DNA from: Branchiostoma floridae
Taxonomy: Eukaryota > Chordata > Leptocardii > Amphioxiformes > Branchiostomatidae
Reading direction: 5' to 3'
DNA length: 64,000 nt
Assembly (NCBI RefSeq): GCF_000003815.2
Contig: NC_049981.1
Location: 11,313,062 to 11,377,061 of the forward strand
The first letter of the stretch is position 1. The number at the start of each line of letters is the position of its first letter. The translations under genes and the position numbers were made by a program. Shown piece by piece: positions 3,566 to 35,759 of this stretch. A model generated the notes under the pieces. That model did not search any database. It was given only the letters and a program-made list of their open reading frames with translations, and had not been told where the DNA came from.

Positions 3566-3600
3566 GATCACGAGTTCTGGACATGTTGCGGCTATGAATT

Positions 3601-8443: not shown

Positions 8444-11400
8444 ATGGAGATGCACACCAACAAGTCGGACACCAATGCTCGAAGTACAAGGAAAAAGGTA
8501 GCGTACGTCGCAGTTCTTGCGCTAGTCATTATTCTCATATCTGTGATCGTGGCGAGCTTGGTGCATCGCAAGATCCTAGGCGACTCCTCGGTAGAAGACC
8601 CTCCGTGGCACCGTGCACGCTTGCCAAAGTCGCTCGTTCCTCAACATTACCGTCTGGAGCTGAAGCCGGACTTGGAAGCCTCCGTGTTTACGGGAGCGGT
8701 AGAGATCACCCTCTATTGTTTAGAACCCACGAGATATATTGTTCTCCATGCCAACCTGTTGAACATCACGGCGGACTCGGTATTCTTAAAGACATTCAGG
8801 GGAGGCAGTCTGACCCTTGAGGACTGGTTCCTTTATCCCAAGAACGAATTCTTGGTCTTGAAGTCCAAGACGTCGTTGGAAACCGGTCAGAGATACGTGA
8901 TTGGGATAAAATTCCAAGGACAACTTCTTGAAGACATGAGAGGATTCTACCGTAGTTACTACACGGCTAACTCCACTAGAAGGTACGTACGAAAACGTTC
9001 TTTAAGTTCTACCTCTAACTATTTTCTTGTGTTGAAACCACGAACAAAAGCTCATAATTCTTGAAACCCTGGCCTTCTTTGTTAAAGTATCCATTTGTTG
9101 CGCTACGGCCAAAATAAATCAAGGCACTAACGTTACATGCAGTTGAAAGCCATGACGAAAAAGGTTTACTATATTTGAAAAAAAAAAGACTATGCATGTA
9201 AAAACTATAGCAAATATAGGAGGTTTTCTGAGGATATTTGATAGACGATATTTCTTTTATACACTTCCAATGCAATTGTTTTTGCTGAGATGAAATGATG
9301 ATCTTAAGGTATATTGTTAATTCTGGACGGTCCCTACGGAAGCATGTCTGTCGTGCTTCACAGCGCTCTTTCCGAAGACCCAAGTGAACTTCTTAAGACG
9401 GATAATGTACTACTTAAGACAAATCGTACCTTCTTTCCGGTTAAGACTCGCCCCTGTTTACGCACGATAAGGATAAGACTGGTTCGGTTTGGTTTGGCTT
9501 GATACGGATCTCAATTAGTGACGGATATATCACTAATCTTCCTGGAGTCCGGGTGATTTGTAGTGAATCAACAACTCTAGACGGAAGGATATGCATAATC
9601 GCACACCGGGGCATGCCCCTACTCTTTTTCGGAAGATGTGGTGGGTTCGTAAACGAGATGTGGCTCTCCCCAAACCTCCATTTAACGTCTTATCCAAGGG
9701 ACTGCCCTGGCCGAAGCCGAAGCTAGGTACTCATTTTTTCACCTGAGTGGAAGTGAGAAAAGTTGTGTCACGTATAAGTTTTCCCATGGCAGGTTTCGAA
9801 CCCAGGATCTCTTGGGCCTGAGCCCAAAGCGCTGCCGATTTGGGATCGATGTATATATTAAGCCACGCGATCTCAGACTACAAATATATCTCTCGATTTA
9901 TTAGCTCAAGAAATACATAATAAGACATGCATCGTTACAATCTTTTCTAGAATGTTGATCAAAGCGACACGCAAAGAAAAAAAGATTCAATAGTAAAGGC
10001 TACAACAGTCTTAACTCTTGATTTATCCAGTATTTACTGTTTCTCATAATTTTCTCATTTTCTCGTTTATTGCGTTGAAGGAAAAGTGACCTCCCTACAG
10101 AGCATAACGTTAGATCTTTTTTTTCCAACTGAAGTTGTTTTTTTGGTAAGTGTACTATTTTCAAATCCAGAAAGACAATGAGAAGAGACAGCGAATGTAT
10201 TTTCCATTATGTATATGTATCTGTGTATATAGCCGGTATAACCGCCCTTCGGGGTAAAACACACCATTTTTTTTTACAGCAATACGTAATTTGTTTTCTT
10301 TCCTTTTATGTATATGTATCGGTGTATAGTCGGTATAAAAGCCCTTGTGTATCAGTATATATCTATATCTACAAATCCGCTATACAATCACGTCAAGCTA
10401 TAAGCGTTGTTTCAAGCTTATCTAATGAGGATACCAGTTACGTGTACTTGGTGGTAACGAGTTCTACTCCACAAAAGTTGTAGGCAAATTCGATTTTTGA
10501 ACACGACCAATCGTACATCTTAACTCTGGTAGTTGAGGGCATGGCTATTTCTTGTTCTTTTCTGAGCTGAGCTGAGCTTTGAATGCTATATTGGGATACT
10601 GTGTCCGTTGTCTCCTGGCATCCGTTCACACCATTGTTCGCGAAGCTTGGGTGCTTAGGAGCTGTCTCTGCCTTATACCGCAGGATGCGGTGTTTGTGTA
10701 AAACGTCATTACAACTGTGATGAAGCACTTGACGTGGATGGACTTGGTGATATGTAGTTAAGGGATGGTTTCACAACTTCCTGTGCCACGTCTATACGAA
10801 GTCATTTCTGAAGCGTTTGCATATAGGTCATCTCGCCAAAACGAATTTGTTGTGTTGTGTTGGTGATTTATCTTGTGGTGGTCTCGCACGTTCACACTTC
10901 TCTTCAAACAAAGTCAGTTTTTTTCAGCCTCTGTTCTTGACAAATTCTGTCTCATAACATCACGTAGTACGCTTTGTCAGTCACAAGACCTATTACAAAA
11001 TCATCATTCATCTGTAGTTATTTTCCAAGCACAACATGTCGTACGATTTTCACGTCATAAGATTTTCAAGCAGGCTGTGACAGAACCCATCGCCAACTAA
11101 AGATAAAGATCTAAGACAGCCGTTTGGAAGCAAGACTGCTTAATTTTGTACGACAGATCCAAGATTAGTCCAAGAATGATCTTCTTGCGTGCGCGATCGT
11201 ACGTCGATCGTGCGAAGAATGAGACTAGACCCTGTGGTATGTTGTACATTTCAGGTATCTAGCCGTCTCCCAGTTTGCCCCCATGGATGCCCGGAAAGCC
11301 TTCCCTTGTTTTGACGAACCCGCCATGAAAGCAACGTTTGACGTCACTCTTGTCCACCAATCAGAGCACTCGTCACTCTCTAATATGCAAATTCGGTGAG

Positions 11401-14400
11401 TTGGTCTACTGTCGCTATGTACATACGGAAACGGTTATAAATTGATAGTACGCAAAGCAATTAAAAAAACGTTATACAGTAAAGCGTCTATCAAAAGTAA
11501 TCTTCCATGTGGGATGAAACAATGTTGGTTTGGCGGAGTAATAAGCTATTTATCTTGTTCATCTTTGTTTCTTCAATGTTTTTTTACTAGCCAATCAGAA
11601 GTAAGATCTGGAGGCTGGGTGGCAGACCACTACTACACCACAGTGCGCATGTCCACCTATCTTCTCGCTTTCGTCATTTCTGACTTCAGTTTCAAAGAGG
11701 GCGTCACTGGTGTCCATGGTAACGTCACGGTAAACAACAACATCAAACTTTTGATATCATATATTGTAAGGTCAGTTTGACTTATATTAATGACCATCAA
11801 TGGTCCGTCTTGTATCTTCTATATATGATCTTCTATCAATGTCATAGCTATATGTGATTATTATTCATGAAGAAATAAAATGTCCTCCATCACAGAATTT
11901 GGAATCAATGTGATTTTCGACTCACTCGCTTCAGATGACTGACTCAATCGCTGTGAACATGTGACATTCTGCATGTGTGACGTCAGAAATGGGTCAAATA
12001 TTGTTGACACCGCCCACCGTCAAAAATCACGTATGTAGCACAGAGATTGGGTAAGAAGACTTAAGAACTCTGATTCACTCGAAAATCCATGTATGTCAAA
12101 TTATTAGGTTGGAGAATAGGTTTTGTTTTTCAAAATTTACTTGAACGACTCAAATAACAGGCTACATATGCTGATATGTAATCATAACAACAGCAAAACA
12201 ATTTAAGTGTGTGTCGTATCTATGAACCCTTTAACGTTATCCAGGGGTACTTCACGAAGTTGCTACTGCGTATGTGTTCTGGAGAGGATGTGTACCATTA
12301 ACACACGCATATTGTTGTAACAACTGTAAATCCCTAACAGCTCAGGGTATGGGCCCAACGGAATGCTGTGACTGGCGGAGAGGTAGACTATGCATTAAGC
12401 GTCGCCAGACGGGTCCTGGTGTATTACGAGAACACCTTCAAGATTCCTTATCCGCTGCCAAAACTAGGTATGTTTTTCCACACCTCGGTACATAAAGACA
12501 ACAAAGATTGAATCAAAATTGACTTCTGTAATACCAAAAATATATACAGCTAGGGGACCCCAAAACCTACAGGACACTATCTTCCAAGAGGCTCTACCAC
12601 CCAAACATCACGACCATGGCATATATCCAGGAGATATATAAACTTGCTCCTTCTCAAAAATAAAGAAGTTATTGTTTTGTATACCATGCTATGTTTTGTG
12701 TATTTTAAACCTTCCTGATCACTTAGCTAGCTATAGATTCCATAATTAAGGCAACATTTTTGTACAACTTTGTTTTTTTTTCGTCACACGCTCGCATCAC
12801 TTTTGGGGTGCACAAAAGATATCATCCATGCAATAAAATCGGTCTGGTCTCATATAACTTCATACCTTTGTACATTTTCTGTCTCTCTCTCGGTGTCCAG
12901 ACATCGTTGCCGTTCCGCAGATGGGCGTCCCCGCCATGGAGAACTGGGGTCTCGTAGTTTCTCACGAGAACAGGCTGCTCTACGCACCACAACTCTCGCC
13001 TGTGTGGAAGAAAGAAGCAGTGGCATCCATGATCGCTCATGAGCTGGCACACATGGTGATCTTTTTTGGTGCATTGTTTCCCGTTTGCTACTTTATGATT
13101 GCTTAATTTACAAGTATTTGCATATGTCGCTGAATGTAGCTATTTTAGCTATATTAGCCTATATTAGAATCTCTATTCTCCAGAAGGAGTGGCTTTCCAT
13201 CATCATTAGCTTATACAGATATGAATGATAGCACATAATGATGGCAATAGCAAATCTTGACATTTTTATCAAGCCATCACCCGAAGAAGAAACAGATACC
13301 TCGTACTATACTACTTACTCAAGTTTTTAAATGATAGCAATGATTGGTTGTGGTCTGCGTTTACGCGTGTAGTGGTTCGGGAACCTGGTGACGCCCGTGT
13401 GGTGGGATGGGGTGTGGCTGAAGGAAGGGCTGGCGACTTGGGCCGCAGTCAGAGGAGTGGACGCCGCAGAGCCGACATGGATGGTGGTGGGTTGCTGTAA
13501 ACGTTGGTCATGATTTGAGTCGTCACATGTATGCAAATTATTCTTTATTTACATTCTTGTGATAAATTAGTTGATAATTTTGATAGATACTCTGACATTG
13601 GAGTTCACCTGATTTTGAAACAGCACTGTTGTAGCAAGTTTTAACAAACTCCTAGAGTGTGTAACACAAACTTTCTGTAACTGGCCAGAATATCAAAGAC
13701 CTTCAAGAAAAACGGATCCGCTAGGAGGCGTGATTAGATGATGTGCTGTACTTTCACATCACGATTTCTGACCCAGACCTACCACAAAGGTGAAACAACC
13801 AGAGGGGCGAGTAGAACAGAAAGAAACAACATCCCGACTACAAAAGCACTAGTGCCCCTGGGCAAGGACGATAGGCAGTACTTAAACACCACTGTTACAA
13901 AGGGATGCTTAACATCAAGTTTGAAGAATTGGGCATTAAAATGCTGCATCACACTTTTTTTTATCCTAGAAAGAGCGGTACTTCGTGCAGTCCCTCCACC
14001 AGATCCTCCTAGTGGATTCGTCCAACTTGTCGCATCCTCTTCAGCTGACCGTCACCGGGCAAGATGACGTGGGACGGGTGTATGATCAACTCTCCTACAA
14101 AAAGGCAATACTTTTAATATTGCAGGAATAACAGGCATCAGATGGCAATGGATGCATTTTAAAGATAAACATTTTGATCCCAAAGAATGAAACTGCAAAT
14201 GAAACATATAATAGAAAGATAGTAGTTGGGCCTTCTTCAGGATGGCTGATCCAATGACTTTGATCACGTTACCTCAGGAACACGCACGTGACTGGGCTTA
14301 TGGGTCAAAGGTGCCTCAAAGTCGGTACCGCCCCCTCCCCTATCTCCGATGGTAAAAAGGTTTCATGGAGGTATTTATAACTTGTGTTGAGTCGAAAGTG

Positions 14401-17400
14401 TAAATATTAATCGTGCTACTGCGAACGCGTACGAAATAGCATTTGTGTTGATAAAATCACTCTTTAAGGACTCTTTAAGCTATATTGTATAATTAGACCT
14501 TATTAACAGATTTATTTTGCGGATACGACTCTTCCAACAGGGCGCTTCGCTGATGCGGATGCTGAACACCGTACTAGACGGAACATTCACCAAAGGGATT
14601 GTGGTAAGGAACGCATCGGGAAAATTGTAACAGCGAGTTTGTGTGGAAATCCTAATAAAATTTTTGTCAGATAAATGTTTGTGCAATGTTTTTGGGATAT
14701 TTTTTTCTTCAAATTTTGTATGATGACTGGCATGGTTAATTCATTTCCTTCCTGATCTCTACTCTAGAAGTATCTTCAAAAGTACAAATACGCCAACGCT
14801 GCACAGGACGACCTTTGGGAGTGTCTTACTGAGGTAAATGTCTTACTGAGGAAAATTTTACTACTGACGATTCCAGTTGTTGCTCGAATAAAATAAAGCC
14901 AACTTTTTTTGCAACATTCAAGCTGAACGCATATGAAAGTTAATGTGTGACGGTCATTAAACATTGTTGAGGTTTTATACAGTCTTCTGAAATTATAACA
15001 TGAAGTCTATATGAGTTGACCTGAACGGCAGTGTGAGAGCACATCAATCATCCCTCAATCGAGACGGGGGCCGATACCGACTACCAGGCGCCTTTGTCCG
15101 GCTGTTGACGTCACACTTCCGTTCAGTTCATGTGACCGACCGTTTGACTGCCGTATAGGCAGCCCAGGAGGACGGCCGTACCGACGTGCAAGTGAAAGAC
15201 GTGATGGACACCTGGACGTTACAGATGGGCTTCCCTGTGGTCACGGTCATCAGGAACTACAGCAACGGCAGTGTCACGGTCAGCCAACGTCACTTCCTGT
15301 ATGACCCGGAAGCAAACGTTCAAGAAAGTCTGCGCAAGTGCGTAATCTTCATTTTTTTGCCAGAAAAATATCTCGCCAGTTCTATATCTCGCCAAATCTT
15401 AATATTATTTGGCTTTCCCAAGATCTCATTTAAGTTATTTTCATTGCAGTAACGTATGGCAAGTGCCGCTGGCTTTTATGTCACGTGATAGCGGGAATGT
15501 GTCACGTGACAACGGGGCTATGTCGAGCCGTGACGTACTCTGGCTGAAGAAAAGAGAAGGTACATTTCTATAATCATTAACATTTGCCTATGGCATAAAC
15601 CTGCGGACATTTTGTTAATAAATATAGCGTGGCATTTTTTTGCATTGCAGATGAAAATAAAGATGCATAAGTGTTAATGCCGCATTGGTCTGCAGCACGT
15701 CTGGGGCCGCATCTGTTAGCAGCGACACCTAGCTGCAGTACGAGATAGAACCAGTCAGTATTGCCCTGAGGAAAGAAAACAGACGATCGCCGTAACATCG
15801 GCTTGAATAAAGCACTTGGTTGTGTGTGTACAAAGTCCTTGTTATCCGATGCACCATTTCTTTTTACATTAAACAACAATCATTGCTTCCTTTTTACCGT
15901 GCAGAAGACTTTCGTTCCTCCATTGATGCCAGTTCGTGGTTGCTGGCAAATACCAATCAGACAGGCTACTACAGAGTCAACTATGACGTCACTAACTGGA
16001 GGCTGATGGCGGAGGATTTAAACTCCGACAATTTTCAGGTCAATAATGTGAATCATTATCAGTTACAGGATAGAATGCACTCTTCAATCAGAGGATAAGG
16101 GTATGGCTTGTTTGGGCGTCTTTGAAAGTCTTTCTTCGAGCTTTTTTGTTTGCCATTTTTGGCCAGAGGTTTGGCTGGCAGAAAATATCCCCCCCCCCTT
16201 CAAAAATGCTTTAAATGTTGTTAAAAACCAGGCAAAGCCTAACTAATTTTCGTAGATAAAGAGATATTTTCTTACGTTACAGTATCTCGCCAATTTCTGA
16301 CCAATGTTTTTGTGCCCGTTTTTTCTAGAATATTCCTTCACAGAGCAGAGCAGGGCTCATAGACGATGCTTTTAACCTCGTCCGGTATGTACTGACTCCA
16401 GTATTAGATTCTGGAACGACCATTGGTTTTATATACGTCTATGGGTTTTGTTGAAAGTTACAAAAAAACATTATAGCCTTGTGTTGAGTATTTTTCAGGT
16501 CGGGTGATCTCGCACCTGCTGTCGCACTCAACCTCTCGCGATATCTGAAGCGAGAGCGTGAGTACCTTCCGTGGCTGGCTGCAGAAAGGGTCTTTGGGTA
16601 CTTGCACATGATGCTGGCTGATACAAATAGCAGTTCGGATCTGAAGGTGTGTGGTTCGTAAACCCTGCATGATATCCATAGTCATAGGAAAATATATCAA
16701 AGAATGCCTAGACGCTAGAAATCTCTGATTGTAATGATTGTAAAAGGCCATCTTCATACCATACTATGCACTCTTGTATTAAGTAGATTAACCTTATAGT
16801 TATGTATACTGTAGTAATTTGTTACTTGATGCCATACTTTGTACTTTGTGCAATTGTTGCGCAATAATATATACATGTAAAAAGATGGATAAATGATGAA
16901 GTAGTGTCACGGCCCTTGTGAGTGCAGTGTATCTAAGCCACGGTATACGTATTGGAAGGTGGAGTCCAACCCTCTCCTCTCACTGTCTTTTACCTCCCAT
17001 CAAAAGTATGGAACCCATTTTTACTCATGGGTGCAGTAAGGAAAGACATGCAAAGTGTCTTTTCCAGTGCCATCTGGAAATTATGCCAGGAATCAAACCC
17101 GTAACCTCTTTATCTAGCGTCTGCAAGACATTCGACGCCACTCAACGTAGCACACACGAGGCAAGGACAGCAAGGACATTTTTTTAAATTATCTTTTCAT
17201 ACTTTTTAAACGTGTAATGTTTACTTTATAACGGGTAGCTGCTCAGTTCGTGAGTGGCGTTTTTTTCTCTTTGGTGATGATCTTGACATGATTTTCAGTT
17301 TTACGTACAAAGCCTGCTGGCTCCTGTCTACCATGAGCTAGGATGGGAACACAGCGGAGAGCACACCACACAGTAGGTGGTAATCTAGACTGTTTTCCTA

Positions 17401-18439
17401 TAGGACGTGGTCAAGGAAAACTTCCACAAGAGACGGAATGAAATAGCGTGCATCTGTTCGAAAATACTGCCCTCCATTACGTGAAAACGAATGTGTAGCT
17501 TCGCTGTGTGTTCAAGTATGTTTCCACTGGCTCGGGTCCAAGTTTGTTCGTTGTAACCGTCTGACAGGCTGGCAGGAAGTGAATTATTACACATGGCCAA
17601 AAGTAAGGGCCCAAAGAAAGACATGTATCCTAATAGATTAGAGCATGCATTGTAATTATGTATATAAAATATTTTTCTCCAAGAATTCATAAAACTTTAT
17701 TTCACGGCGAAATTGAATCTTAGCTTTTTTCTCACCTCTCAGGTTGAACAGGTTGACAGTGCTGTCAATGGCATGTCAGTATGGATACCCAGAATGTCTC
17801 CAAGTAGCAAGGGGAAGAAAAGAGGCTCTCGACAATGGCGGCAGGTAGGGCCTAAGTTCTAGGCTGGAAAATACTACTGATTTTGTTGCTTTGAATGGAC
17901 GGTTTGCTGTGTGGAACGGAGTGTTATCATTTCCATAATTCCAACTACTGTTTATGTCCCTACTAGTTATTAAAAGAGTAAACTTCTCCTCGTATTTTTA
18001 CAGCGTGGAACCAAGCATGAAAGCAATCATTCTGCAATATGGCAGCAACCGCACTGGGTCAGGGCTAGTGGCCGCCATCTTGAACCGGTGAGGTGATATG
18101 AATTCACTGCAGTTTATCGACTGACACATTTTCTGACATGTTTTAGTGAATAGCTCTTTTCCAGTGCACTTGTCGTATAGCTCCTTGCAGCTGGTTGTGC
18201 CTGCAGAGTACAAAAACAAGAGCTATCAACCACTAAAAATCACAACCATTGCATCTCCAGAAGCTAGATATAAAACTTTCGAACGTTCCGCTGTAGTACC
18301 ATAACAAGCTGCTATGAGGCACAAAGTCTAACCATTACAATGTCTTACCCACATACCAAACATCAATACATACCATAAAAACGTTATGCAGTCCATACAC
18401 AAACGTACAAACATACATAAATGTACATACATACATTGT

Positions 18440-18477
<38 letters not shown>

Positions 18478-19736
18478 CACACACACATACATACATACAT
18501 ACATACATACATACATACATACATACAAACAAAAACATAACCTTTTTTTGCGAAGGTAGTAAGTAACTATCTATAATCACTTCTGTGTGAGTTTCAGGAC
18601 CAGGATCCTGGTGGATTCTGGACTATTCACGAAGGAAGACTTGCTGAATAAGTTAATGACCTTAGTTGACTCTAAAGAAGAGAAGAAACTAGTTTTTGAC
18701 TTTCTTCGAAATAACTGGGACTACATGATAGAGGGGTAAGTGTAAACAGACAATTGGACTCATGGAATTCTCGATCAGTCCTCCTGTATTCTAGAAGCGG
18801 GTATGTCACTGGACGCAAGGGAAAATTGGCGCAAATTTGCAAAGTTGACGCAATTTTCTAGCCTAATTTGCATCATCAGTTGGCCAGTCCAATGAGGATA
18901 TCCCAATTTCGTGCGAAAGAAAATAAATGAAATTTCATTGCTTTGATTGCTTAATGTGTGTAAATCGTTGTCTATCTTCAGCGACATTCACAACCCCCAT
19001 TTTATATCTGTCTTATGAAGCTCCACAGTTCCTTCTGGACTCATCAACAAGCTGACGGAGGAATTCACCACACACAAGGACTTGAGACAGGTAAGATTTC
19101 CTGTGACGATGTTTAACAAATAGACATAGTTAACCTGGCGACAAACTAGCCTGTTTTACTGACAGTCTCTTGCTCAAGTTGCTGTTGGGGCCTCCTCCCC
19201 AAAAGCTTGTCGCCATCTCCAAGTCAAGAGTCACCAAGAGGATCTCAGAATACTTAATCACTATAGCAATACATGTACATCCAATAGGAGCTCAGGATTC
19301 TTAATCATTACAACAATACATCCAATAGGAACTCAGTATTCTCTGTCACTATGGAAGCCAGTCACCTCTAACACTGTGGCAACAGACAGTTTTCATTCTG
19401 GCCGCATGTCAGTTATGTTTAAATCAATAGATCATAGTAGGGGGTCAAAGTAGGATGATCACAATTCTCCTGAGTAGCCACCAAGCTTCTATCTTCTGTA
19501 GAGATATTCTACCTAAAGGTTAGACAAAAAATAAAGAGATCAAGCTCACGTGGACTGATTAATTTCCACAGTTTGAAGACTTCTTGACCAGCCATCCCAA
19601 CATGGCGTCTCGTTCTGACGTCACGGCGGCGCTGGAGCGGATCCGCCAGCACGTCCTGTGGAGAGAGCGTAACGAGGACGCTGTGAGGGACTGGCTGGCA
19701 CGGGAGCGGTACGGGAGGGGAACGAGGACGCCGTGA
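8444..19736 (+). CDS. Gene A: membrane aminopeptidase N-like, M1 family
   Basis: Twenty coding exons: 8444-8982, 11255-11395, 11591-11729, 12341-12467, 12901-13055, 13373-13486, 13970-14104, 14541-14603, 14768-14833, 15159-15337, 15450-15559, 15905-16038, 16329-16384, 16499-16646, 17299-17372, 17743-17844, 18004-18087, 18598-18735, 19021-19090, 19572-19736; 912 aa. A short cytoplasmic N-terminus, one membrane anchor (about residues 19-41), then the ectopeptidase. It is expected to be a zinc enzyme removing N-terminal residues from peptides at the cell surface. Zinc site HELAH (362-366) with Glu385 in WLKEG; catalytic Tyr448 in LSYKK. Odd points: PAMEN (326-330) replaces GAMEN, exon 7 ends at a GC donor, and exon 17 is 84 bp against 171 in gene B, losing 29 codons. 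The ATG at 8444 was chosen because the frame upstream has only a TTG. Same exon layout as gene B. Ortholog identity (ANPEP or another M1 member) is not settled. Confidence 0.86.
8983..11254. other. Gene A intron 1
   Basis: A 2.3-kb intron between the anchor/N-domain exon and exon 2. It holds an antisense tRNA-SINE-like copy (9690-9860) and a local duplication of a tatgtatatgtatcngtgta block with a following ccctt (10200-10350). No further coding exon is seen. Confidence 0.6.
9690..9860 (-). mobile_element. tRNA-derived SINE, antisense
   Basis: Read on the minus strand, a pol III B-box-like GGTTCGAAACCTG (near 9793-9805) is followed by a tail containing a version of ttcactcacttccactcaggtg (9740-9760). 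The same tail order occurs in the plus-strand SINE at 60915. Diverged, with ends not resolved. Confidence 0.5.
15010..15137. mobile_element. Short foldback MITE in gene A intron 9
   Basis: The ends gacctgaacggcagtgtga (15018) and tcacacttccgttcagttc (to about 15130) are near-perfect inverted repeats. A related, partly inverted copy with ggtatcggcccccgtct lies in gene B intron 3 (26370-26440). No coding capacity. Confidence 0.6.
16900..17175 (-). mobile_element. SINE-like repeat, antisense, in gene A intron 14
   Basis: It contains aatcaaacccgtaacc (17091-17106), the complement of a B-box-like motif. A segment with ttactcatgggtgcagtaaggaaag resembles the tails of the other SINE copies in this window. 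Weak but consistent. Confidence 0.4.
18240..18545. repeat. Repeat with compound CA and ATAC microsatellite beside exon 18
   Basis: A dispersed repeat segment (18280-18330, related to 5810-5850 and 54190-54240) runs into (CA)n at about 18440-18486 and (CATA)n to 18528. Exon 18 of gene A starts 53 bases further on. Copy C has a shorter CA tract at the same place (4318-4333). Confidence 0.7.
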
Positions 19737-21662: not shown

Positions 21663-24520
21663 ATGGAGAATTCCCAAGACAAGACGACTTCGAGACGGAA
21701 GAAGAAGAGTAAGCGTCTGCTGATCCTCTTGGTAGCGATCCTAGTCTTTGTGTTAGTAGCGGTGGCTGTAACAGTAGCCTTGCTGGTGTACCGGACGGAC
21801 CAGGAAGCCTCTTCGGGTGACCTGTGGCTGGAAAGCCGCCTACCGTCCTCCCTGGTGCCGCTACACTACCAAATCCAGCTCCAGCCTGATCTGAACACCT
21901 TTACTTTCACGGGAAGCGAGCAGATCTCAATCCAGTGTTTGGAGTCTACCAACTATATATTGTTGAACTCCAGACTTCTCAATATTACGGACGGATCTGT
22001 CTCTCTACAAACAGCCACAGGAGAGGATTTAAACGTTGAACGCTGGTTTCTGTACCCAGAAAATGAGTTCTTTGTGGTACAGTCTACACAGAGCTTACGA
22101 AAGGGAGAAAGCTACGTTCTGAGTGTGTCGTTCTCTGGCTTGTTAATGGACGACTTGCGGGGGTTCTATCGGAGCTCGTATTTGGACAGCCTTACCGGCG
22201 AGACAAGGTAAGTACTCAGTAAGAGCCGCACACAACCATAAAACCTACGTCACTATTGTTGTTATAGACGAAGGTGACTTTGCATAAGCCTTAAGCCAGA
22301 AGCCATAGGGCAAAAGTCATGCATTCATGTATAGGTTGTAAAACGTATAATATATCATAGGGGCTATGTTGGAAACAAAATTGTGCGGTTCCACGTGTGA
22401 AGTAACGTTATACATATATATGTCTACTTGCACCTATATAAAACTAGGTATAGTCGTCATAATTGGTTCAAGTGGACACGCCTCCAACTGAAGTGACGTG
22501 AGTGTTTGGGTCTAACGGACTATCTATATCCTTAACAACAAAGACTTGATCGCAATACAAGCAAAGTTTGACTTCAAAACTCGTTGATAAGTGTGGTGCC
22601 GAAAAGGGGGCGGGCATGCCGTAAAAAGCGCGCGCTTGTACTTAGTTCAAACACTTCCTTGACACAGAACACACACACGACATGAAAAACACGTAAAACA
22701 ATAAGTAATCGTTTGAAGGAACCGTCTGAATATTTGCTCCACTTTGGTGAAGTGACGTCAGCTGTAGATAGCGTGCGGTAAATCAAGTTTCCGAGCCAGA
22801 CGTATTTGTCAAACACAGTGGTTGTGTGAGCAGGTGTCACATTATATCGTCCCCCCTGGCGTGATTTCGTCACGGGGGGAGGAGGCAAATCTCAAGGTGG
22901 ACGAATTCGTTGTGACACCGGCGCGGTCTTAATTCGCGATTCATTTCCAAGAAAGCTTGTTGTATGTGTCGCGTATGCTTAACCTTGTACAATAAACTCG
23001 TTCATTGGCACATACTAGTGAAACCATATACTCATGAAATGTGTTGACAAGCGTATGAAATTGACCTTTTGTCCCATATCTGGACATACCGTATCAAAGT
23101 AGTGTCCGGGCAATTATTTTGGTAAGTGGCAAATATCACTCGTGTCAACACCATGCGTTACTCTAGATCCAACCAGGGAGTTTATAGAAGATTTATAGAC
23201 CCACATCTTATCACAAAATATAACGCAAGCGAATGAAATGGTCAAAAGTATAACGTAATGCTTACATTCCCTGTTTCCTAATCTGCAGCAACTGGTGAGA
23301 GTAGCAATGTAACGTACAAAAACACCATGTTAACCTTTGAATATATAATCTGTAGCGATATAGGGCAGTCCAAGAGTGGGAGGGGTGTACTGTGTGGCGC
23401 GCCGTGTGCATACTCCATCTGTCCTTTCCAACATTGCTTATCCCGAGATTATACTAAAAACAAACATGGAAAGTAGACAGTTTGTTGCGTCTTTAAATTT
23501 GTTAGATATGCTCTTGAATATACGTCTGGCAAAGTCTTCATAACTACGACTATTCTACTCTAGATTTGCGTCTAGCCTTAATAAAACGTATAGGTTTTAG
23601 CAGTCACACTCAACTTAGGTGAAACATGTTGCTTTTTTTAAGTATTGTAATGAGCCCTCTCTATTAATCTTGCTTTCCATCATGCAAACCGGGTAACCCC
23701 TAATCTCGAACCAGATCCACGGTGCGTAATGTATAGTATCAAACTTCCCGTATCAAACCTCCGGTGCCCGTTTGACTCCCTTAGCCGGCTACACTCCTTG
23801 GCAAGCTTTGATACTATCTTATGGCACCGTAGGATCTGCTTGGAGATTAGGTAACCCCTACACATATGTTAGGTTCTTTTTGTACAGTTTAACGCCTGGA
23901 CTCCCCCATACACGGGTCTAATATGATGTGAAAAACTCGTTACTTGCTATCGTTACACGTTATGTTGATCTGAAAGCTGTTCCCAAAAGCTGTTTTTAAA
24001 ATAGAGTATTTATGGATGGCAACGTTGGTTTCAAATTGCAATATTTTGAGACTTTGAAACTACCGCCCGTCTACTTTATATAGCAAAACATCCTGTTTTG
24101 AAAAACAACGTATATAGGTTACCCCAAGAATTAACTATTGCTAGATACCCTTGAAGCAATTGTATAATTTTTTCGACTTATTGGGACAGGCAGATGTTTT
24201 AGATCTGTCCTTAGCCTTGCGCCTGATTAACTCAACTATCGCACGCTGTTCACCAAATAGGCTTGGCAAAAGTCCAGGTCAAACGCTGTACTCACCGTGC
24301 AAGAATGTACGGAGTCAGGAGCCAGGTGCACAAAAGAACAGACAAGATATTTGAGCAAGAACATCATGCACTGCCACTTTGGCCCGAGTTGCCAAGACGA
24401 TGAGTTGGCAAATAGCCACACACAAGCACGCACGCGCGCACACTGGCACGCGCGCGCACACGCACAGATACACACTGACACGCGCAGACACAAAGAAACA
24501 CAGAAACATACACACACACG

Positions 24521-24602
<82 letters not shown>

Positions 24603-27600
24603 GGCGCGCACACACATGCATGGTTACGTCCACTAAACCAAAGGTTAATAATGCCCCTGGACCACAGACCAGCCCGGTATCCCCTATTAATAATAAATCT
24701 CATAAGTCACGAAAACAGATCAACACCAGAACTTCACCTTTTCCTCCCGGCGGAAACAATTTCCGGCTCCTGCGACCTTCCCGTAGAGAGCATGTGTAAC
24801 CTATGCGATCTTATCTACCTGTGTTTGGGCGTCAATCTAAAAATTTCATACGACTAAGGGGACACACGTGCTACGTACCCTGGTCTCCAGACATATTTAG
24901 CTCCCGGCACTTCTGCATTTGCGGAGAGGACAGAAGAGACTCACTGCAATACGGCCAGGCTACACACGTGCGGCAACTGCCTGTTTCTTTGTTATTACCT
25001 CCATGAAAAATGGAGGTATAGTTCTTGGCCCAGTTTGTTTCTTTGTGTTTCCACAGTAGTAACTTGAGAACCTCTGGAGAGATTGTGATGATGTCTATGG
25101 GTGGGTACGTGTTGTAAACACGGCGATCTATTAACTGGATTTGGGTTCTCTGGCGCCTGGCCTTGGTACTACAATAGAGCCTCCGTTTTTTGTATCTTTT
25201 GTCCTAGATATGCTATGGTATTGTTTCACACGAAGATTTCGGAAGTCCACAGTCTGTCAGACTTTGAAGTATGCATCAATGTCCTTTATATTACAAAGTT
25301 GTTATTATCTTGACGTTTACCGTTTCTAACAGATTACCGACATCAGGGAAAATCTACTCAATGGTGTATGTTTGACATTCTCTCTGTAGGTATCTTGCTA
25401 CAACGCAGTTTTCTGCCATAGACGCCCGGAAGGCCTTCCCGTGTTTCGACGAGCCCGCCATGAAAGCCACGTTTGACGTCACTCTCGTCCACCAATCAGA
25501 ATACACGGCTCTTTCCAATATGCCGATACGGTACGTTATATTTGTTTTCATTCATCATTTCAACCATAGTTTTGTTACGGAAGACCCTACTCGCCAATAT
25601 GTGTTATCAATATCGCTTGTTTGTCTTCGAATGTTTTGAGTCTGTTTCCACTGACTGGATCCAACATTGGCCAGGAAAATGATGCATATATAATTATTAT
25701 TGAACTGAAAAATGGTAATTATATAATTGGAGACTTGCAGAATTGTAAGGCTGATTTGTAAGAACGCTTATTGTACAAGGTCCAAAGTTGATGCTGCAGG
25801 CTTAGTCAAACAAGTGGGAAATTTCGAATAATAAATGAAAAAAATAAATCTACATAAACTGTAAATCTTTCACAAGGAAAGGCCCTTGATGTCACGGAGG
25901 TATGAGGTCTTGAATTTCTTGTTTGATTATGCTGCAGTCAGTCAGATGTAAGAGAAGACGGGTGGACAGCGGATCACTTCGATACCACAGTGCGCATGTC
26001 CAGTTACCTGGTCGCCTTCGTTATCTCAAACTTCACCTACAGGGAAAACGTCACTGGTCTCCATGGCAACATAACGGTAAGTTCTAATTTTCAATTGTGC
26101 TTTTCATTAATTGCTGGTGGATGCTTTCTTTTCTGTTTTCTGACAAGCTCTTGTTTCTTTTTATCAATTTTATTTTCTTTTTTTCCACTGTTGTCTTCTG
26201 TTGTCCTTGGGTTATGTCACGAATCGTATTAAGGTTTACGTAGTACAAAAATGACAAATGTACACACTATTTCGTACACAAAGAAGAGCGCTCACTGACA
26301 AGATGTCAGTTAGTCCTCTGATCCATCTCAAGCTGAAATGACCCGAAGCCTATGTCAGGTGACCTGAACGGAAGAGTGATGGATGTGTAACGTCAACAAG
26401 GTACCAGACAATCGGTATCGGCCCCCGTCTTTGCTGACCTCTTTAACTCGAGGGGGGGGGGGGGAGCGTTGCACCAAAATCGCGTTTGTATGCGCTTAAC
26501 AAGTTTTGTAAAGCTTCCATGTAATGATGTTTCCTGCAGTTGAAAGTGTGGGCCCGCCCAGACGCTGTTGAGAACGGTGAGGTGGACTACGCCATCGCCG
26601 TGGCCTCCAAAGTGCTGACGTACTACGAGGAATACTTCGGCATCCCTTTTCCTCTTCCCAAGCTTGGTAAGTAAGATATGGCTAGACAAGTATGTTATTG
26701 CAGCTTTTATAAAAAAAAAAAAATGCTCACCAAGTTGCCGGCCGTATCCATCGGCCTTTATAAGAAATTTGACCCACTTTCCTGACGCGCAAGAATCTTC
26801 GTGACGTCTGACGTCAGGAGTGGGTCAAAGGTGTCTGGAAGTTGATACCTGCCGCCGTTCCGGTTTAACGTGGTTTAACGCAAACTTTTAAGTATCGCAC
26901 AAACATATGCTAGTTTTCATTCTAAATAAATTACCATTGGTCTTCATGACAAGTGAAGTGCAGTCAACATTGAGCAACTCAGTTGCTGATTTTCATCACT
27001 AAAGTTCTAGCCCAACCGTCTAAGTTCATCAAAATCCCCTCGAAATTTAGATAATGAAGAGTTCCATATTTTCAGGGATACCGTTCGAATGACTTACCTA
27101 TCTAATATTGTAGGGCGGAAGTTTCTTATCATATTGTGTTTCCTCCAGACATGGCGGCGATTCCCGACTTCCCTTTCGGCGCCATGGAGAACTGGGGTCT
27201 CATCACTTATCGCGAGACTTCGCTGTTGTACGACCCTTCCGTCTCCACGGAGGCAAACAAACAAAGGGTAGCTGTTGTTGTAGCCCACGAGCTAGGACAT
27301 CAGGTGAATATATTTACCAACCACAGTCGTACAGCAAACAGTATGTCCAGAGTTTAAATTTTCGATCCAGTGAAAAGCATCAACTACAACACTATATGTA
27401 GGGGATGGGGATTTGTACTGACCCATGCTTCTACTCGCTTAAGCTCAGCTACCCTCCCGATGTATTCTTCCATCAAGGATTGCCACAGCTTCGCTTCAAA
27501 ACTTCCACCCATTTCTTTGGCAGACGAACATTGCTGTCTTCTTACGAAGTCTCCTGTCATTTTATCATCACCAAATCTCCGCTGGTGAAAGAAAGATTCA

Positions 27601-30600
27601 GTCAGTTCCCGACACTGCTGTTCCTCCCTTCCCTACCCCTGCTGTCACGTAGTGCACGCAACCCCTCACTAACCCCTCACCCCTTCCATGTCCCCAACAA
27701 CAGTGGTTCGGAAACCTAGTCACAGCGGAATGGTGGGACGACATTTGGCTCAACGAAGGCTTCGCCAGTCACGTTGAATACCTTGGGGCGGCACATGCGG
27801 AGCCTGATTGGATGCTGGTATGTGACGTGTCCGATTCCTATTGGATGGCAGTATGACACGTGGTCTTTCTCGTTTTTGTTGTCATGCGCAGTGGTTTGGG
27901 AATCTAGTGACCCCTGCGTGGTGGGAGGATCTATGGTTGAAGGAGGGTTTTGCCAGTACAGCTGAATATCCCGGTGTAGACTTCGTGGAACCAACGTGGG
28001 CCATGGTAGGTTGTAACGAGTCTTCTTTGTCAGAAAAACAACATCAAACCGACGACACTAACAATAATTTCTTGAAAGGTTCTACTGCACGTGTAACGTT
28101 ATATCATAGTAGATCATGGCATTACATATGTCTGTGTCGAAGCGAATGGTTATGGTACTGAAACTAAAATAAAGTTAAAGTTGTTTAATACATAACAGAA
28201 GGAACGGACAAAAACACAACACAAGTAAGTATGATTCTAAGAAATACAACCTCAGCAAATCTAACATTGACAAAATGAAAACATATGCAATTTTAAAAAC
28301 GTTTCAAAGGAAACGCGTAAAGGAAGAAAATGGCGAATACCGTTCTTCATTCATTAAGTTTTGAGACAATCAATAATTTGTGGATAACAATTTTATTCTT
28401 CAGGAGGACCAGTTTCTGGAGGAAGACCTACATCCGGTGTTCGCCCTGGATTCCCTCAGTACGTCCCACCCCATCTCCCTCCCGGTCAACCATCCCGACG
28501 AGATCTCCCAAATATTCGACACCATCTCCTACAGTAAGGTATGGGCATATCTCTAGACAACGCAAGGGATGCTGGGATGGCTGCATTTCCTCCTCTGTAG
28601 CTTGATTGCTTACTTGCGTTTGTAGATCCCGTATCTAGAAGTGTTGAAGAGAAATTTCATTACCCATATTGATTATACGACAAGAAATGAATCCACCACT
28701 TCTATGTCAATATTTTATGCATATTAAAACTCATGACTCAATGAGTAGTGGATCGGATGCATCAGGTAGTTCGTGGCGTCCTCCGTCTCGGTTCAACTTG
28801 TTTTCCCTTCCTTTTCCAGGGAGCGTCCATAATCCGGATGATGAGTTCGTTCCTGGGCAGCAGTTATACCAAGGGCATAAAGGTAAATGTTGGAACTAAA
28901 GCTGAAACTTAAATATCATGATCAGTATCTAAGTTGTTGATGAATGAAACCTTTACCCAAAATGGACAGCCATGTGGCGAGTTTGATCCAGATTGTGTCT
29001 CTCTTTCCACGTGTACAGAGCTACCTGGAGCGCTACCAGTTTGCGAATGCTGTGCAAGACGATCTGTGGAATTCCCTCACAGAGGTGGGTCCAGATCTCT
29101 GAGCTAGTTCACCTTTGTCAGCGGGGTAACCTAAAGCCATGTAGTTTAAAAAAAAGGTTATTTATAATTCAATTTGGGCTATCAAGTTATTGCAATGCTT
29201 TCAAAATGTTGCAGTTATTTTCACAGTATTGCACCGCTCCGTCGAACCGACATTACTTAATACCCTATTTGAAAGGGGTACAGATACATTGTGTAAAGGT
29301 GAACCAGCGTTACATTTGGAAAAATGAAATATTTTAAACTCGTACTAGTATCACGTTCTTAAAGACTAAGAAAAAAAGGATTGATTGAAGAAAAAAACAC
29401 ACACACAAATAGGTTTGGTAAATCTTTCAGGCAGCCCAGGAGGACGGCCGCACCGACGTGCAGGTGAAAGACGTGATGGACACCTGGACGTTACAGATGG
29501 GCTTCCCTGTGGTCACGGTCACCAGAGACTACAGCAACGGCAGGGTCACGGTCAGCCAACGTCACTTCCTGTATGACCCGGAAGCAAACGTACCAGAAAG
29601 CCCGTACAAGTGCGTATGTTTCAACTTACGCACAGAGTTCAGATACCTCGAGCTCATATACCTCCATGAAATGATTTGATTACGCAAATCACTTACAGAT
29701 TTACATAATCAATGCCTGAATATACACATCTTTAACATACTTGCCCATGTCACAAGTATGGAATTCCCATCATCTATCACGTAGATGAAATATGACACTT
29801 TGGCATTAAACATGCAAATTAAGTCCATATATGCATATATGTCCATAGATGCACCAAAAACAATACTTCCATTTTTTTGGACATGACGTCACTGTGAGCA
29901 TAACGACCAGGTCCTAAAACTCTATCTTGTCTTTGTCACTGTATTTCTTTATTCAAATTGTACAGCTGTTTGTGATTCTATTACGATAGGTAAACGACTT
30001 GCTCTCAAATCTACACTTTAACGTCGTGTTCCTTCAGCTATGTCTGGCAGGTGCCACTGACCTACACAACAGGAGAAGACATGAACTTTGCTGACCCTCC
30101 ACAGACGTGGATACGCGACAAAACAGGTTAGTTCGAAAGTAGATGCCTGCAAAACACTTAATTTTTAAATCAAAAGGCAATTTAATGAATCATGATAAGG
30201 CTTTGAATCAATGTTTTGAACGAGATGTGACCGAATGCATATCAGAAAAATTTTGTTACACATTTGTGAGGATCACACAATGGGAACATAGCATCCCAAA
30301 TCCTACCAATCAAAAAGGTAATATTTATGAAGATAAATCAAGATAATGTAAAACTTTAGGGTCACATAATCTCATCCGTGAACATTCTAGGTCACAACAC
30401 CATAACACAGCCCGCCATGCCTAGTGTCCGAAAAGTCCAGTTTAAACAATTTCTACACCACATAGAAGAACATGGCGCGAGCCGGGCCTGTACAGGTCTA
30501 GCACACTAAAAGTGGACCCACGTCGCATGCCTGTGTTAGTGGCTTTTGCCCTGTATTAAATTAAGACTTGTCTCTATTGTGGGAAGCAGAGACACTGGTT

Positions 30601-33600
30601 GTTTAATTTTGTTTTCATTTGTTACCTGCAGAAGAATTCCCGTTGTCAGCAGCACCTACAAGCTGGTTGATCGCCAACGTTAACCAGACGGGTTATTACC
30701 GGGTTAACTATGACATGGCTAACTGGGAACTACTCACCAACTTCCTGATGAGCGATGACTTTCAGGTAAATATATAAAGAAAACAAACAAAAACGAACAA
30801 TAGACAGAGGGTAAAATCTTTAAGAGGATATTGAGGCTATGTCATCAAAAGTGATTTTTCTAACAGTGAATACGACTTTTTTCCAGGCTATTCCAGTCGC
30901 TACAAGGTCTGCCCTTATTGACGACGCTTTCAACATTGCGCAGTAAGTGGCTATTCTTGCTAACGAGAACTTTATAGTCCACCTTATTATTCACTACATT
31001 TATTAATGATAAAGAAATCAGTAGCAACAGGTACTAAAGTTTCTACATCTATATGATGCAAAAAATATGGCGGGGCTCGAAACGAACTTTGGACACAGCA
31101 AGCATACATCATAACAATTTCTTACCAACTCATCCTCTTCGTCCCTAGATAGACATAAGGCCGTCTGTACGTTGATTAAAAATTTGATGCAAAAATCTAG
31201 GCTTCTATTGATGTTTTTGTTCCAGATCTGGCGGCCTCAGCACTGTGATAGCTCTTGACCTCTCGCGATATTTGAGACGTGAGCGAGATTACCTGCCATG
31301 GGCGTCGGCCAGTCGTGCTTTTGGTTACATCTCCAACATGATGGCGGGGACAGGCAGCAGCCAACACTTAGAGGTGGCAAAAATACCAACTTAACAAACA
31401 TGAAACAAACGAAATTCCCGTTGATACAAAACTAAGACTTCAAGTTTCTTTGATATAATTTCTCCTAGATTCTCCTTGAGCCATTTTTTTGACCGTTAGA
31501 CAGAATGTGGTCTTCATATCTCCATATCTATAATTCAGACTGTAATTTCCAACACAATTACTGGACATTTCGACTGTACAACACCAGTCTTTGTCAAGGA
31601 ATGAATCACAGACGTCTCTTTGTGCAGATTGCAGACACGTGACTCACTGAGTAGCTGGCCAAATGTAGCAGATAATCTGTAGCGTCCTCCGTCTCTATTC
31701 ATCATATCCTTGACAAAGACGTATGTTGTGGGTACAGCCAGAAATTCCAATTACTTCCTTACTAGAAGGTAATTCTTTTTTATAAATTGTACCAACACAG
31801 GTGAATTTTCAAGTTAATCTCATTTGGTACCGAATGTTTCCCCGTTGTAGAGATACGTGTTGAACCTGGTACTGCCTGTTTACAACACATTGGGATGGGA
31901 GGATACTGGCGGCCATCTAGAGAGGTGATTTCACGAATTGTGTTTGTTATATGTTTGTGCTGCTGCTATGTGTGTTCGTTTGTACTGCTGCTATGTGTGT
32001 TCGTTTGTACTCGTGTGTGTTCAAGTGTGTTCGTGTTTCAGTGCTCATGTGTGTGTGTTTGTTTGAGTGTATTTGTGCTCTTGTGAGTGAGTCTCAGTGT
32101 TATCATGAAGGCATGTGTGCGTGTGGCATAACACACCAGCTACGCACATGTGTGTAACATCCATTGGCATAATACCGGTCGGTTTACTGCAATTTCTCAA
32201 GCAATGCTAATTTGGCAAATGATCAACGCATCATTTTCTCCAGTTACATGTTGCTGTTACAGCTTACCTTTGCCACTTCTTCTGTGTAAATTATTTTGTC
32301 TCTCTGGTCCTGCTAAAAACATAGTATCGTAATTGGAACACACCGCGGAATTGCACGGAGAACGGGCGCGTGGTTGGAAGGGGGTGCACTATACCGGCCG
32401 AACGAAACACGGCACAATTAACTGCCGCTATGTACCTTTATACATCCTCTGTCGTTCCTTTCTTTCCTGTTAGTAGTTGCACAAAACAAAAATCTGCACG
32501 AGCATACAAAAAGTCATGAGAAAATGGGCGTATACTGACAAGAATTTTCATTTAATTTTGGTCCGTCACAACCGCTATGACGTAAAACTTTACTGCTGGC
32601 CGTAGCATTAAAAATGGCGGGAAAATGGCGGCGTACGTTCAATTTGACCCATTCAGCCGTAGATCCGGGCGATAATGCAACGGTTCCTCACACTTTTACA
32701 CGAGTTGTAGGTCACCAAAAGAAATTCAAGATTGCTGTTGAATCATGCTCGTCTTGTGCCGTGAGCACATGTGATTATTATCTACAAATCTGGCGGTGAA
32801 CGTGACAGTGTGTTCGTCCCACGACGAGCTCGCCTGCCCCGAAAATGACCTGAAAACTTTTGGCCTTGTTGTCTTCGAATGCATTGTTATCGATGCTTTG
32901 TAAATGGTGTATTGGACACCTAGATGTCTGAAGTGTGCATACCTCAGAAATAACTATTGTTGCATGTGTAGATCTCTTTAAGTTCCACTACTTTTAATCG
33001 ACCGGTATAAGGCTTATGACCGGTATTATGCCAATGCATGTTACTTGATGTTTGTGTTTTCCTTTGGGTGTGTTCGCGTGTGGCTTACTAGTATAAACAA
33101 ACTTCATTACATGGGAATAGCAAAAGTCTAATCTCTGATATACAGCACCAAATATTTCCTGTGCATATTCGGTGGTATCGTTAGCATTTGAAAAACTTTT
33201 TGTTTGTTGTAACTGCCACAGATATAACCGGATGACGGCCTTGTCTTTGGCATGTAATTTCGGCTACAACGGCTGTCTTCAAAACGCTTCACAGAAGTTC
33301 TCAGAATGGCGAGGAGGGGGCAGGTAATCCCTTAACGTTTCTACTCGTATCCTGTGCATGTAGTTATAATCAGGATGCAACATTTTTTTATTTTAAAGCC
33401 AGTGACGTTTAAGCACATTCATGACAACATCGAACATGTCCTCCATTTTTATTATGGTGCATCATGGGTATATATAGGATTGACGTCACAAGCAACGGAA
33501 TTGCGAAAACATCATTCACGTTTTCATTGATGTCAGCTAAAAGTTCAATAAAAAGGGTAATTAGGTATTTTTTTCTATTTTCCCTTTCTTCTGTATACCA

Positions 33601-35759
33601 CCATGTGTAAAAATTAATGCTTGGTTTTCTTTCTCTGTAGCGTTTCTCCGAATCTAAAACGCACTGTGTATTGCTATGGGATCGCGAACGGTAATGAGAA
33701 TGACTGGAACTTCGCCTGGCAGAGATACCTCAGCACGGACACTGTTGCGTCCGAGAAGGCGCTCCTCCTGTCGGCTTTAGCGTGCACTGCAGACCAATAC
33801 GTACTCAGAAGGTACCTACCGAAGCAGTGCTCCTGGCAAAGGAACTAACACTGACATACATCAAACCATATCTTACGATTTGATATAGGTGCAAGACAGC
33901 GGCAAAACGCTTCAATGCGCTCACAGACCGTTATACTTTAGTACATGAAAAGTAATGATGACTTGATTTGTTATATGTTGTAAGATTCGTGTTCAGCACC
34001 AAGGACAGAGCCATAGGGAAGTTTTGCATGCTGTTCATAATAGCTCGGTAACAGCCGTGTTCCTCAATACTGTAAATGCAGAAATGTTCGCGATGGATTA
34101 ATGTTCGCGGTTTTCGCGGTGACCACTTCACCGCGAATTTAAAACCACCGCGAACATTTTTCTATTCTGATATTAGATTGCAGTCTATGGTGTTACCGCG
34201 AACTTAAATCCACCGCGAAAAGTCCCTTTTCCCGCTACCGCGAAATTAAATCCCCGCGAACTTAAATACATTTACAGTATATCAGCCAATGATTCACATT
34301 ATAGCAAAATGACATGGAATATGTGTCTTGGCCGCTACATATTGGCCACGTATCACTTATTGACCACTTTGAGAGCTGTATTTCTCATGCTCATGATAAA
34401 GATTAGCTGGTATGGGGGGGGGGGGGGGTATACAACCAGGGACATTTTCAGGCCATTTCTTATCACTGATGACCACTATTGTCATGCTTAGATATCTGGA
34501 TTGGACCATTGACTCCACAAAAGTTCGCAAAGGTGATGCACTCAACACCATTGTGTCCATCTCTGGTAACAAGCTAGGGAAGGCCATGGTATGGACCTTT
34601 CTAAACCAGAACTGGGACTATATCTTCGACAGGTGAGGATCCACTGTTGTTGTTATACTGTTGTTGTTACTATTTTTGAGTGGGCCAGCTACTCTTTGCT
34701 AGCTAACAGCTAGGTGCTGATTTGGGGGAAGCCTACAATTGGCAGGGCTAAATCAAGGGTCGAAAAGGCAGCCTGTATACATTTTTGGACATGTGCTGCC
34801 TACAAACCCCAATACCACTGTAATTGACCCAGTTGCAGCCATTGAACTGAGAAGGACCCATCCTTTTTTTAATAAATGGTTTCTTTAACGTGCTCAAGCT
34901 GTGGCCTTCCTCAATTTAACGTCCTTTCCAAGGTATAGTCCTGACCAGGTATAGTCATGTACTCATTTTCACCTGGGTGAAGTTGTGTACTGTGCCCTTA
35001 CCAATGGTATGGGAGATATCAGGTTTTTTCAATCAGTATCACTATAACTGATGTGAAAACATGCAAGCTTCCTTAGGATATTTATTGTTTATATTAACTG
35101 ATGTAAGTTTTCAATAAGGATACATTAAGGTGCTAAGAAATTTGTAATGTTTTGAGACTTTGGTGCTTCTACTATATGCTGATGACTATGTTTTTTCTAT
35201 AAAATGTACTTTTTCTAGTTATGGAGGCTCACTGTTTGGCCTTACCGGCCTAATTCTGGGTGTCACAGAGAACTTCAACACAGAGGAAGAACTACAGCAG
35301 GTACAAAACCTTGATAGTTTGTGGAGATTTTTTTCCTCTTTTATGTGCACTGTATATACTAGGCATTGTATTGCCATTTTGGGCCCCAAGAAGGCAACAG
35401 AAATGTATATTATTAGTATATTAAATACAGGAAATGAGATAGCCTAATTTGGGACCTTTTACCTGACTTCCTGTCAGTGCCCACAACAAGAAAACACACA
35501 CACAGCCATACCTAAAATTTACCTGCTGTTTGACAAAGGTAGAAGACGAATTTCATCAAAACTACCTTTTATTTTCTATCTTTTCCTCTTACCGTAGATG
35601 CAAGACTTCGTCACCAGTCACCCAGAACTGGGCACAGCTACACGAGCATTTCAGCAGGCCCAGGAGAGAGCCAGGGCTAACATCAAGTGGAGACAACAAA
35701 GCGAAGACGATGTTGCACAGTGGCTAGCAGACAACCAGAGAGAAAGTGCTACACTTTAA
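21663..35759 (+). CDS. Gene B: membrane aminopeptidase N-like, M1 family
   Basis: Twenty coding exons: 21663-22207, 25390-25530, 25938-26076, 26540-26666, 27149-27303, 27704-27817 (6a), 28404-28538, 28820-28882, 29019-29084, 29431-29609, 30038-30126, 30632-30765, 30887-30942, 31226-31373, 31851-31924, 33222-33323, 33641-33811, 34492-34632, 35219-35300, 35598-35759; 940 aa, a usual length for aminopeptidase N. A basic cytoplasmic tail (RRKKKSKR), membrane anchor at about 20-42, then M1 domains I-IV. GAMEN at 328-332, HELGH at 364-368, third zinc ligand Glu387 in NEGFA, catalytic Tyr450 in ISYSKGAS, and GYYRVNYD near 605. It should cleave neutral N-terminal residues from peptides at the cell surface. 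All phases close. An upstream GTG adds nothing, so the ATG at 21663 is used. A second exon 6 (27892-28005) is annotated separately. All active-site residues are present. Confidence 0.92.
23691..23858. mobile_element. Foldback MITE in gene B intron 1
   Basis: The left arm (gggtaacccctaatctcg... to cacggtgc) and the right arm (gcaccgtaggatctgc... to ggtaacccc) are imperfect inverted repeats of about 34 bp. A second inner pair (tagtatcaaactt / aagctttgatacta) extends the palindrome. No ORF. Confidence 0.6.
24415..24606. repeat. (CA)n microsatellite with CGCG-rich edge
   Basis: An alternating purine-pyrimidine tract of about 190 bp, mostly CA with acgcgcgc interruptions at 24430-24490. Long reading frames here on both strands are artefacts of the repeat. 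Confidence 0.95.
27892..28005 (+). CDS. Gene B alternative exon 6b (zinc-ligand exon)
   Basis: A 114-bp, 38-codon exon lies 74 bases after exon 6a (27704-27817), with the same length and phase 0 at both ends. It has a GCGCAG acceptor and a GTAGGT donor. It begins WFGNLVTP like 6a (WFGNLVTA) but reads WLKEGFAS instead of WLNEGFAS and ends EPTWAM instead of EPDWML. It supplies the third zinc ligand (Glu) of the M1 site. Its LKEG and GVD...EPTW features resemble gene A's only exon 6 (13373-13486). Using both exons would add 38 residues with a second EGFAS, which no M1 enzyme is expected to tolerate, so exclusive use is likely (inference). Confidence 0.75.
31535..31750 (-). mobile_element. Penelope-like retroelement 3' fragment
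   Basis: A 71-codon minus-strand frame contains [19 protein letters not shown]. This matches the conserved end of the GIY-YIG endonuclease of Penelope-like elements, where NRDGG followed by RYxL and a terminal LL is typical. It continues into a hairpin tract ending cgaaatgtcc, also found elsewhere in the window. Only the end of the element is present. It lies in gene B intron 14, antisense. Confidence 0.55.
34067..34280. mobile_element. Palindromic MITE with CTGTAAATG ends (copy 1)
   Basis: The ends ATACTGTAAATG and CATTTACAGTAT are exact inverted repeats. The interior repeats ccgcgaac and gttcgcgg many times and folds on itself. TA flanks both sides, consistent with a TA target duplication. 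It lies in gene B intron 17, and a diverged copy is at 50836-51238. Confidence 0.75.
34860..35025 (-). mobile_element. SINE-like repeat, antisense, in gene B intron 18
   Basis: It contains catgtactcattttcacctgg and ggtgaagttgtgta, the complement of the conserved tail of the SINE at 60915 (cttcacccaggtg). The tRNA-like part is degraded. Confidence 0.45.

Follow-up and report, generated by a model that had tools for sequence, protein, structure and literature searches.

Two alternative zinc-ligand exons, probably used one per mRNA, in an amphioxus M1 aminopeptidase gene

An aminopeptidase-N-like gene of the amphioxus Branchiostoma floridae (gene B) carries two neighbouring versions of the exon that supplies the glutamate ligand of its zinc site. 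This raises the question of whether both versions serve the gene, one at a time, or whether one is a leftover of duplication, and of what the second version would change in the active site. The window analyzed here is a stretch of 64,000 nucleotides of contig NC_049981.1 (positions 11,313,062 to 11,377,061, forward strand), and the positions below are those of the window. Our best explanation, which we consider likely, is that the two exons, 6a and 6b, are old tandem-duplicated alternative exons of a single M1 gene, with one of them included in each mature mRNA. The features on which the argument draws are listed here.

8444..19736, + strand: gene A, a tandem paralogue upstream of gene B, with an open M1 frame that runs through 20 exons and encodes 912 aa
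13373..13486, + strand: the single exon 6 of gene A (A6), which shares its Pro and Lys with 6b
21663..35759, + strand: gene B, a 20-exon aminopeptidase-N-like M1 gene of 940 aa with either exon 6, as read from exon joins and phases
27149..27303, + strand: exon 5 of gene B, with GAMEN and the HELGH zinc motif, ending in phase 0
27704..27817, + strand: exon 6a, the canonical zinc-ligand exon (WLNEG), with a weak acceptor
27818..27891, + strand: the intron between 6a and 6b, 74 nt, the shortest in genes A and B
27892..28005, + strand: exon 6b, the variant zinc-ligand exon (TPAWW, WLKEG), with a strong acceptor
28404..28538, + strand: exon 7 of gene B, joined in phase 0 to 6a or 6b alike

Gene B has AG/GT borders and consistent phases across its 20 exons, with no internal stop in the form containing 6a or in that containing 6b. 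Residues 54-936 of the 6b form align with residues 5-903 of chain 8wde_D (E 1.5e-228), and exon 6 aligns ungapped; we take this chain and 4fyq to be human aminopeptidase N. Like aminopeptidase N, gene B keeps GAMEN, HExxH, the ligand Glu and SYSKGAS along its full length. Its GAMENWG and SYSKGAS stretches align with the GAMEN exopeptidase motif and the catalytic Tyr segment, respectively, the choice of the catalytic Tyr within SYSKGAS being our assumption. In contrast to aminopeptidase N, gene B has two versions of the zinc-ligand exon, a Ser at the Gln213 site and, in exon 6b, a Lys at the Asn410 site. Its N-terminus, judged by eye, is a hydrophobic anchor. By motifs and profile, gene B is classed as an M1 zinc aminopeptidase (PF01433), and peptidase activity is predicted for its isoforms.

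The initial annotation had presented 6a and 6b as intact, interchangeable exons, and its description matches exactly: both are 114 nt long, phase 0-0 and open, with AG before and GT after, and they lie 74 nt apart. Either exon places the zinc-ligand Glu (of WLNEG or WLKEG) 18 residues past the HELGH of exon 5, the spacing that defines the M1 family, and either gives a complete 940-residue enzyme. The Lys that had been noted in 6b in place of the Asn before the ligand (WLKEG versus WLNEG in 6a) is there as well; it is not private to 6b, as exon 6 of gene A likewise has Lys. These adjacent and homologous exons, equal in length and phase, encode segments that are identical at 23 of 38 residues. 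The likeness is more than chance, since each 38-residue segment alone exceeds the Pfam Peptidase_M1 cut-off of 27.7 bits (51.7 bits for 6a, profile positions 79-114; 49.9 bits for 6b, positions 79-115) and 6b on its own finds aminopeptidase N chains of known structure (best E 2e-13).

The history of the pair is bound up with gene A, which the initial annotation did not mention. Genes A and B share 51% identity across 884 aligned residues, and gene A, itself apparently intact, has no exon 6 other than the one of the Lys type. Trees place genes A and B as sisters, with support of 92/90 from eleven other exons and 76/79.6 from nine, and give gene A a branch length of 0.62 versus 0.13 for gene B. 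When rows were re-read from the DNA, 6b grouped with A6 (96/90; 90/89 without the longest row), a grouping that dissolves once the columns with Pro and Lys are left out. In AU tests, trees constrained to join 6a with 6b had p values of 0.034 for typed rows and of 0.11 and 0.085 after the rows had been re-read from the DNA; the constraint joining 6a with A6 had 0.025 and 0.027. A search of introns 5 and 6 of gene A returned no relic of 6a, equally high scores being reached by 139 and 35 of 200 shuffles. The simplest reading of these comparisons would be that the exon duplication predates the split between A and B, and that gene A may afterwards have lost 6a, leaving the Lys type alone.

A different origin, which we regard as unlikely but far from negligible, is that 6b came into gene B as a copy of gene A's exon, through gene conversion or an unequal exchange, and did not arise by duplication within an ancestral gene. 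This rival concerns origin, whether or not 6b is used, and does not conflict with the best explanation. It draws support from blastn, which at E 1e-3 ties A6 to 6b (77.6% across 58 nt) and not to 6a, and from exon 10, whose 93% identity argues that exchange between A and B does happen. Exon 10 stands out among the 14 equal-length exons of the two genes, of which exon 2 is 80% identical and the remaining 12 are 49-72% identical, and it has probably undergone recent gene conversion. However, 6b and A6 are identical at 72 of 114 sites, within that 49-72% range, so any exchange at exon 6 must be old. Over the full 114 nt, moreover, A6 is nearly as close to 6a (70 identical sites) as to 6b (72), 6a and 6b themselves sharing 70.

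Some minor features of this region may be recorded here. The exon 10 match between A and B (window 15159-15337 and 29431-29609) stops close to the exon borders. In gene A, the intron after exon 7 would begin with GC and not GT (window 14105-14106), and PAMEN replaces GAMEN (window 12901-13055).

Whether 6b is a working exon depends on how it has changed. The two exons differ at 44 of 114 sites, distributed as 8, 10 and 26 over the three codon positions (chi-square p 0.0013). Exon 6b keeps 18 of the 21 residues common to 6a and exon 6 of gene A, and it has three private residues, compared with six in 6a and five in A6. Neutral simulations starting from the 6a sequence, with 3000 runs per number of changes, preserved as many residues in 32% of runs when 10 changes were made, in 6% with 15, in 0.2% with 22 and in 0% with 44. 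The simulation thus favours selection on 6b solely if the exon has gathered about 20 changes of its own, as 10-15 changes would make its conservation mildly unusual or not unusual at all. Half of the 44 differences gives about 20, a share that suggests this number and does not prove it. Decay is also a poor description of 6b because its fit to the M1 profile equals that of 6a and 18 of the 21 common residues are kept. The exon therefore looks selectively constrained, not decayed, and the constraint anticipated by the initial annotation has its apparent signs in the third-position excess and in the residues kept relative to the simulation at 22 changes.

These figures bear directly on the reading in which 6a alone is used and 6b is a silent leftover of duplication, rarely or never spliced and open by chance. 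The gene works on 6a without 6b, and the conservation of 6b would not be striking had it gathered just 10-15 changes of its own. We nevertheless find this reading improbable. The exon has the fewest private residues of the three and retains the common ones to a degree matched by 0.2% of the 3000 neutral runs at 22 changes; both of its splice sites exceed the median score for genes A and B, and the paralogue, gene A, relies on an exon of the Lys type.

The splice sites of the pair are unequal on the acceptor side. The acceptor of 6a scores 0.6 bits, with one of 38 acceptors lower, and that of 6b scores 9.49 bits, with 71% lower; the donors score alike (7.98 for 6a, 8.16 for 6b). Both the donor and the acceptor of 6b lie above the median for sites of the two genes. 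By acceptor strength, 6b may be the easier choice, despite the good branch-point motif that precedes 6a by 31 nt.

The intron between the exons measures 74 nt, and all 38 other introns of genes A and B are at least 112 nt long. A simple matrix made for this analysis puts the best usable branch-point candidate of the 74-nt intron at 39 nt from the donor, which leaves 35 nt to the acceptor; another motif scores equally, but at 8 nt from the donor it lies too near to function. In a human survey of mutually exclusive exons, a distance of <50 is treated as potential steric interference and applies to 57 clusters, or 9% (PMC5740500). Mutual exclusion of 6a and 6b is the likeliest reading, since the intron is the shortest of both genes and its branch-point candidate falls within this published steric limit. 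RNA docking among the three introns gave nothing beyond shuffles, the observed energies being reached by 92, 7 and 50 of 100 shuffled versions, and nonsense-mediated decay does not enforce exclusion because both exons together, at 114 nt each, stay in frame. The 74-nt intron may also be spliceable, which counts against exclusion. The claim of the initial annotation that one exon is chosen per mRNA is plausible as far as the intron geometry goes, and exclusivity itself is what we infer from that geometry.

Inclusion of 6a and 6b jointly in some or all mRNAs, with a 38-residue insertion as the result, is a reading that the open frame allows, the length of each exon being divisible by three and its ends in phase 0. 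As the initial annotation pointed out, such an mRNA would carry the zinc-ligand segment twice. This would repeat the whole segment in a fold that aligns ungapped to aminopeptidase N over exon 6, and it would require splicing across the shortest intron of either gene, with its usable branch-point candidate at 39 nt. We judge joint inclusion very improbable.

Amphioxus genomes are highly polymorphic, and two haplotypes of one exon could in principle have been assembled in tandem, an artefact that is hardly credible given 44 differences in 114 sites with a third-position excess and one exact copy of each exon in a genome search. It was rejected on this divergence and because the stretch 27300-28410 holds no tandem repeat and the flank is not repeated. 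The idea that 6b is the remnant of a second whole gene was likewise dropped, as no other exon of gene B is duplicated at E 0.01.

The main active-site change in 6b is Asn410 to Lys, directly adjoining the zinc ligand Glu411, in what we take to be human aminopeptidase N numbering, which agrees with the alignment to 4fyq. Prokaryotic relatives provide a comparison, in a set consisting of the best 80 of at least 539 confirmed candidates, selected with patterns overlapping exon 6 and therefore an uneven sample; enzymes of the PepN type would presumably fall outside it. Within these best 80 relatives, position 410 is Asn in 77 and Lys in one of 78 readable loci, and position 401 is Pro in 12 of 78 and so not rare. 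At the likely partner site, two residues past Gln211 and hence at the Gln213 position, 64 of 68 readable loci in the same best 80 have Glu and four have Gln. Gene B has Ser at this site and gene A has Ala. The one Lys-bearing prokaryotic relative (L046) has Glu there, as in the Glu121-Lys319 pair of PepN.

Elsewhere in the amphioxus genome, the eight pattern-matching loci have Glu or Gln at the partner site; they amount to six genes because two pairs overlap, and among those six genes one partner-site residue may read into an intron. Six other M1 genes each have one 38-codon exon 6 with AG/GT borders. Position 410 is Asn in five and Thr in one of the six other fully read exon-6 copies; of three partial or weak copies, two have Asn and one has Ser, and the motif is lost from a further, very weak match. 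Two more exon-6 matches lie at C3:17358018 and C180:27266. In another paralogue (L089, contig C3), whose exons 5 and 7 closely resemble those of gene B, a 3300-base run of N between these two exons (3743-7042) masks exon 6.

Escherichia coli PepN offers a comparison for the Lys itself. It presumably has, as 6b does, a Lys directly before the zinc-ligand Glu, and we take its Glu121 and Lys319 to correspond to the partner site and to the position before the zinc-ligand Glu in genes A and B. A salt bridge between Glu121 and Lys319 is described as pivotal for activity and stability in a title within the reference list of PMC12190285. Genes A and B differ from PepN in having Ala and Ser, respectively, at the Glu121 site, and a bridge of the PepN type therefore cannot form in them. 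Both sites have changed in genes A and B, one of them being restored by 6a. The earlier suggestion that the two isoforms differ in S1-side chemistry gains some weight from the PepN bridge and from the Ser (gene B) or Ala (gene A) at the second site.

On the preferred reading, the 74-nt intron would be too tight for 6a to be spliced to 6b, so that exon 5 would be joined to one or the other. A regulator would set the ratio of joining to 6a, with its weak acceptor, and to 6b, with its strong one. The 6a isoform would be a near-canonical aminopeptidase N. The 6b isoform would have Lys beside the zinc ligand and Ser where the partner site is usually Glu or Gln, and we hypothesize, given the changes at both sites and the restoration of one by 6a, that it should recognize the first residue or the amino end of a substrate differently. 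As judged from DNA alone, the main idea of the initial annotation is likely right.

Exons 6a and 6b belong to a well-known kind of exon pair, and the zinc-ligand segment of an M1 peptidase is an unusual place for one. The exons 2 and 3 of alpha-tropomyosin are tandem-duplicated and mutually exclusive. Human mutually exclusive tandem exons, as described in PMC5740500, are likewise equal-length homologous neighbours encoding the same stretch of a fold, and the 39-nt distance from donor to branch point in gene B falls inside the <50 criterion used there. The amphioxus pair differs from them in carrying a catalytic metal ligand, in staying in frame on double inclusion and in being known from sequence. 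In ketohexokinase, also an enzyme, each isoform contains either exon 3A or exon 3C, and the C form has the greater affinity for fructose (PMC6464065). That enzyme has another fold and chemistry, and its exon choice is seen in tissue RNA-seq, whereas for 6a and 6b the choice is predicted. A literature search, mostly without subscription papers, found no report of such an exon pair in an M1 peptidase among the papers listed, and the word "peptidase" is absent from the text of the tandem-exon papers PMC5740500, PMC9741552 and PMC9013439.

If both exons are used, one gene would yield two zinc peptidases that differ in the metal-ligand segment. The pair would then be a natural test of the effect of position 410 on substrate choice. 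A splice choice in gene B would also match a fixed state in its tandem duplicate A, so that other amphioxus genomes could be used to test which came first, the exon duplication or the gene duplication.

A second case of tandem active-site exons is present in the genome. A tblastn scan of gene B's 20 exons against eight M1 genes, six of them covered as 9.9-kb stretches, gave 96 exon-by-gene matches and tandem exon copies at two places: 6a/6b, and a triplicated exon 5 in an M1 gene of contig C6. The latter comprises three GAMEN/HExxH exons of 155, 158 and 155 nt (C6:25034089-25034638; L092:3590-4139), all open and AG/GT bordered, with two 41-nt introns between them. Two copies together would shift the frame. 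The triplet looks younger than 6a/6b, as it forms a 199-nt tandem repeat with 82% matches. A broader reading, which we offer tentatively and would not favour at present, is that M1 peptidases here repeatedly diversify their catalytic centre by tandem active-site exons, with splicing and gene duplication trading places. It would embrace the Asn/Lys switch of 6a and 6b together with the triplicated HExxH exon, gene A having fixed Lys and gene B having kept both. Within the window, a third M1 copy lies in pieces at about 3389-6465: one stretch resembles exon 7, and the others are C-terminal exons whose tail is repeated several times.
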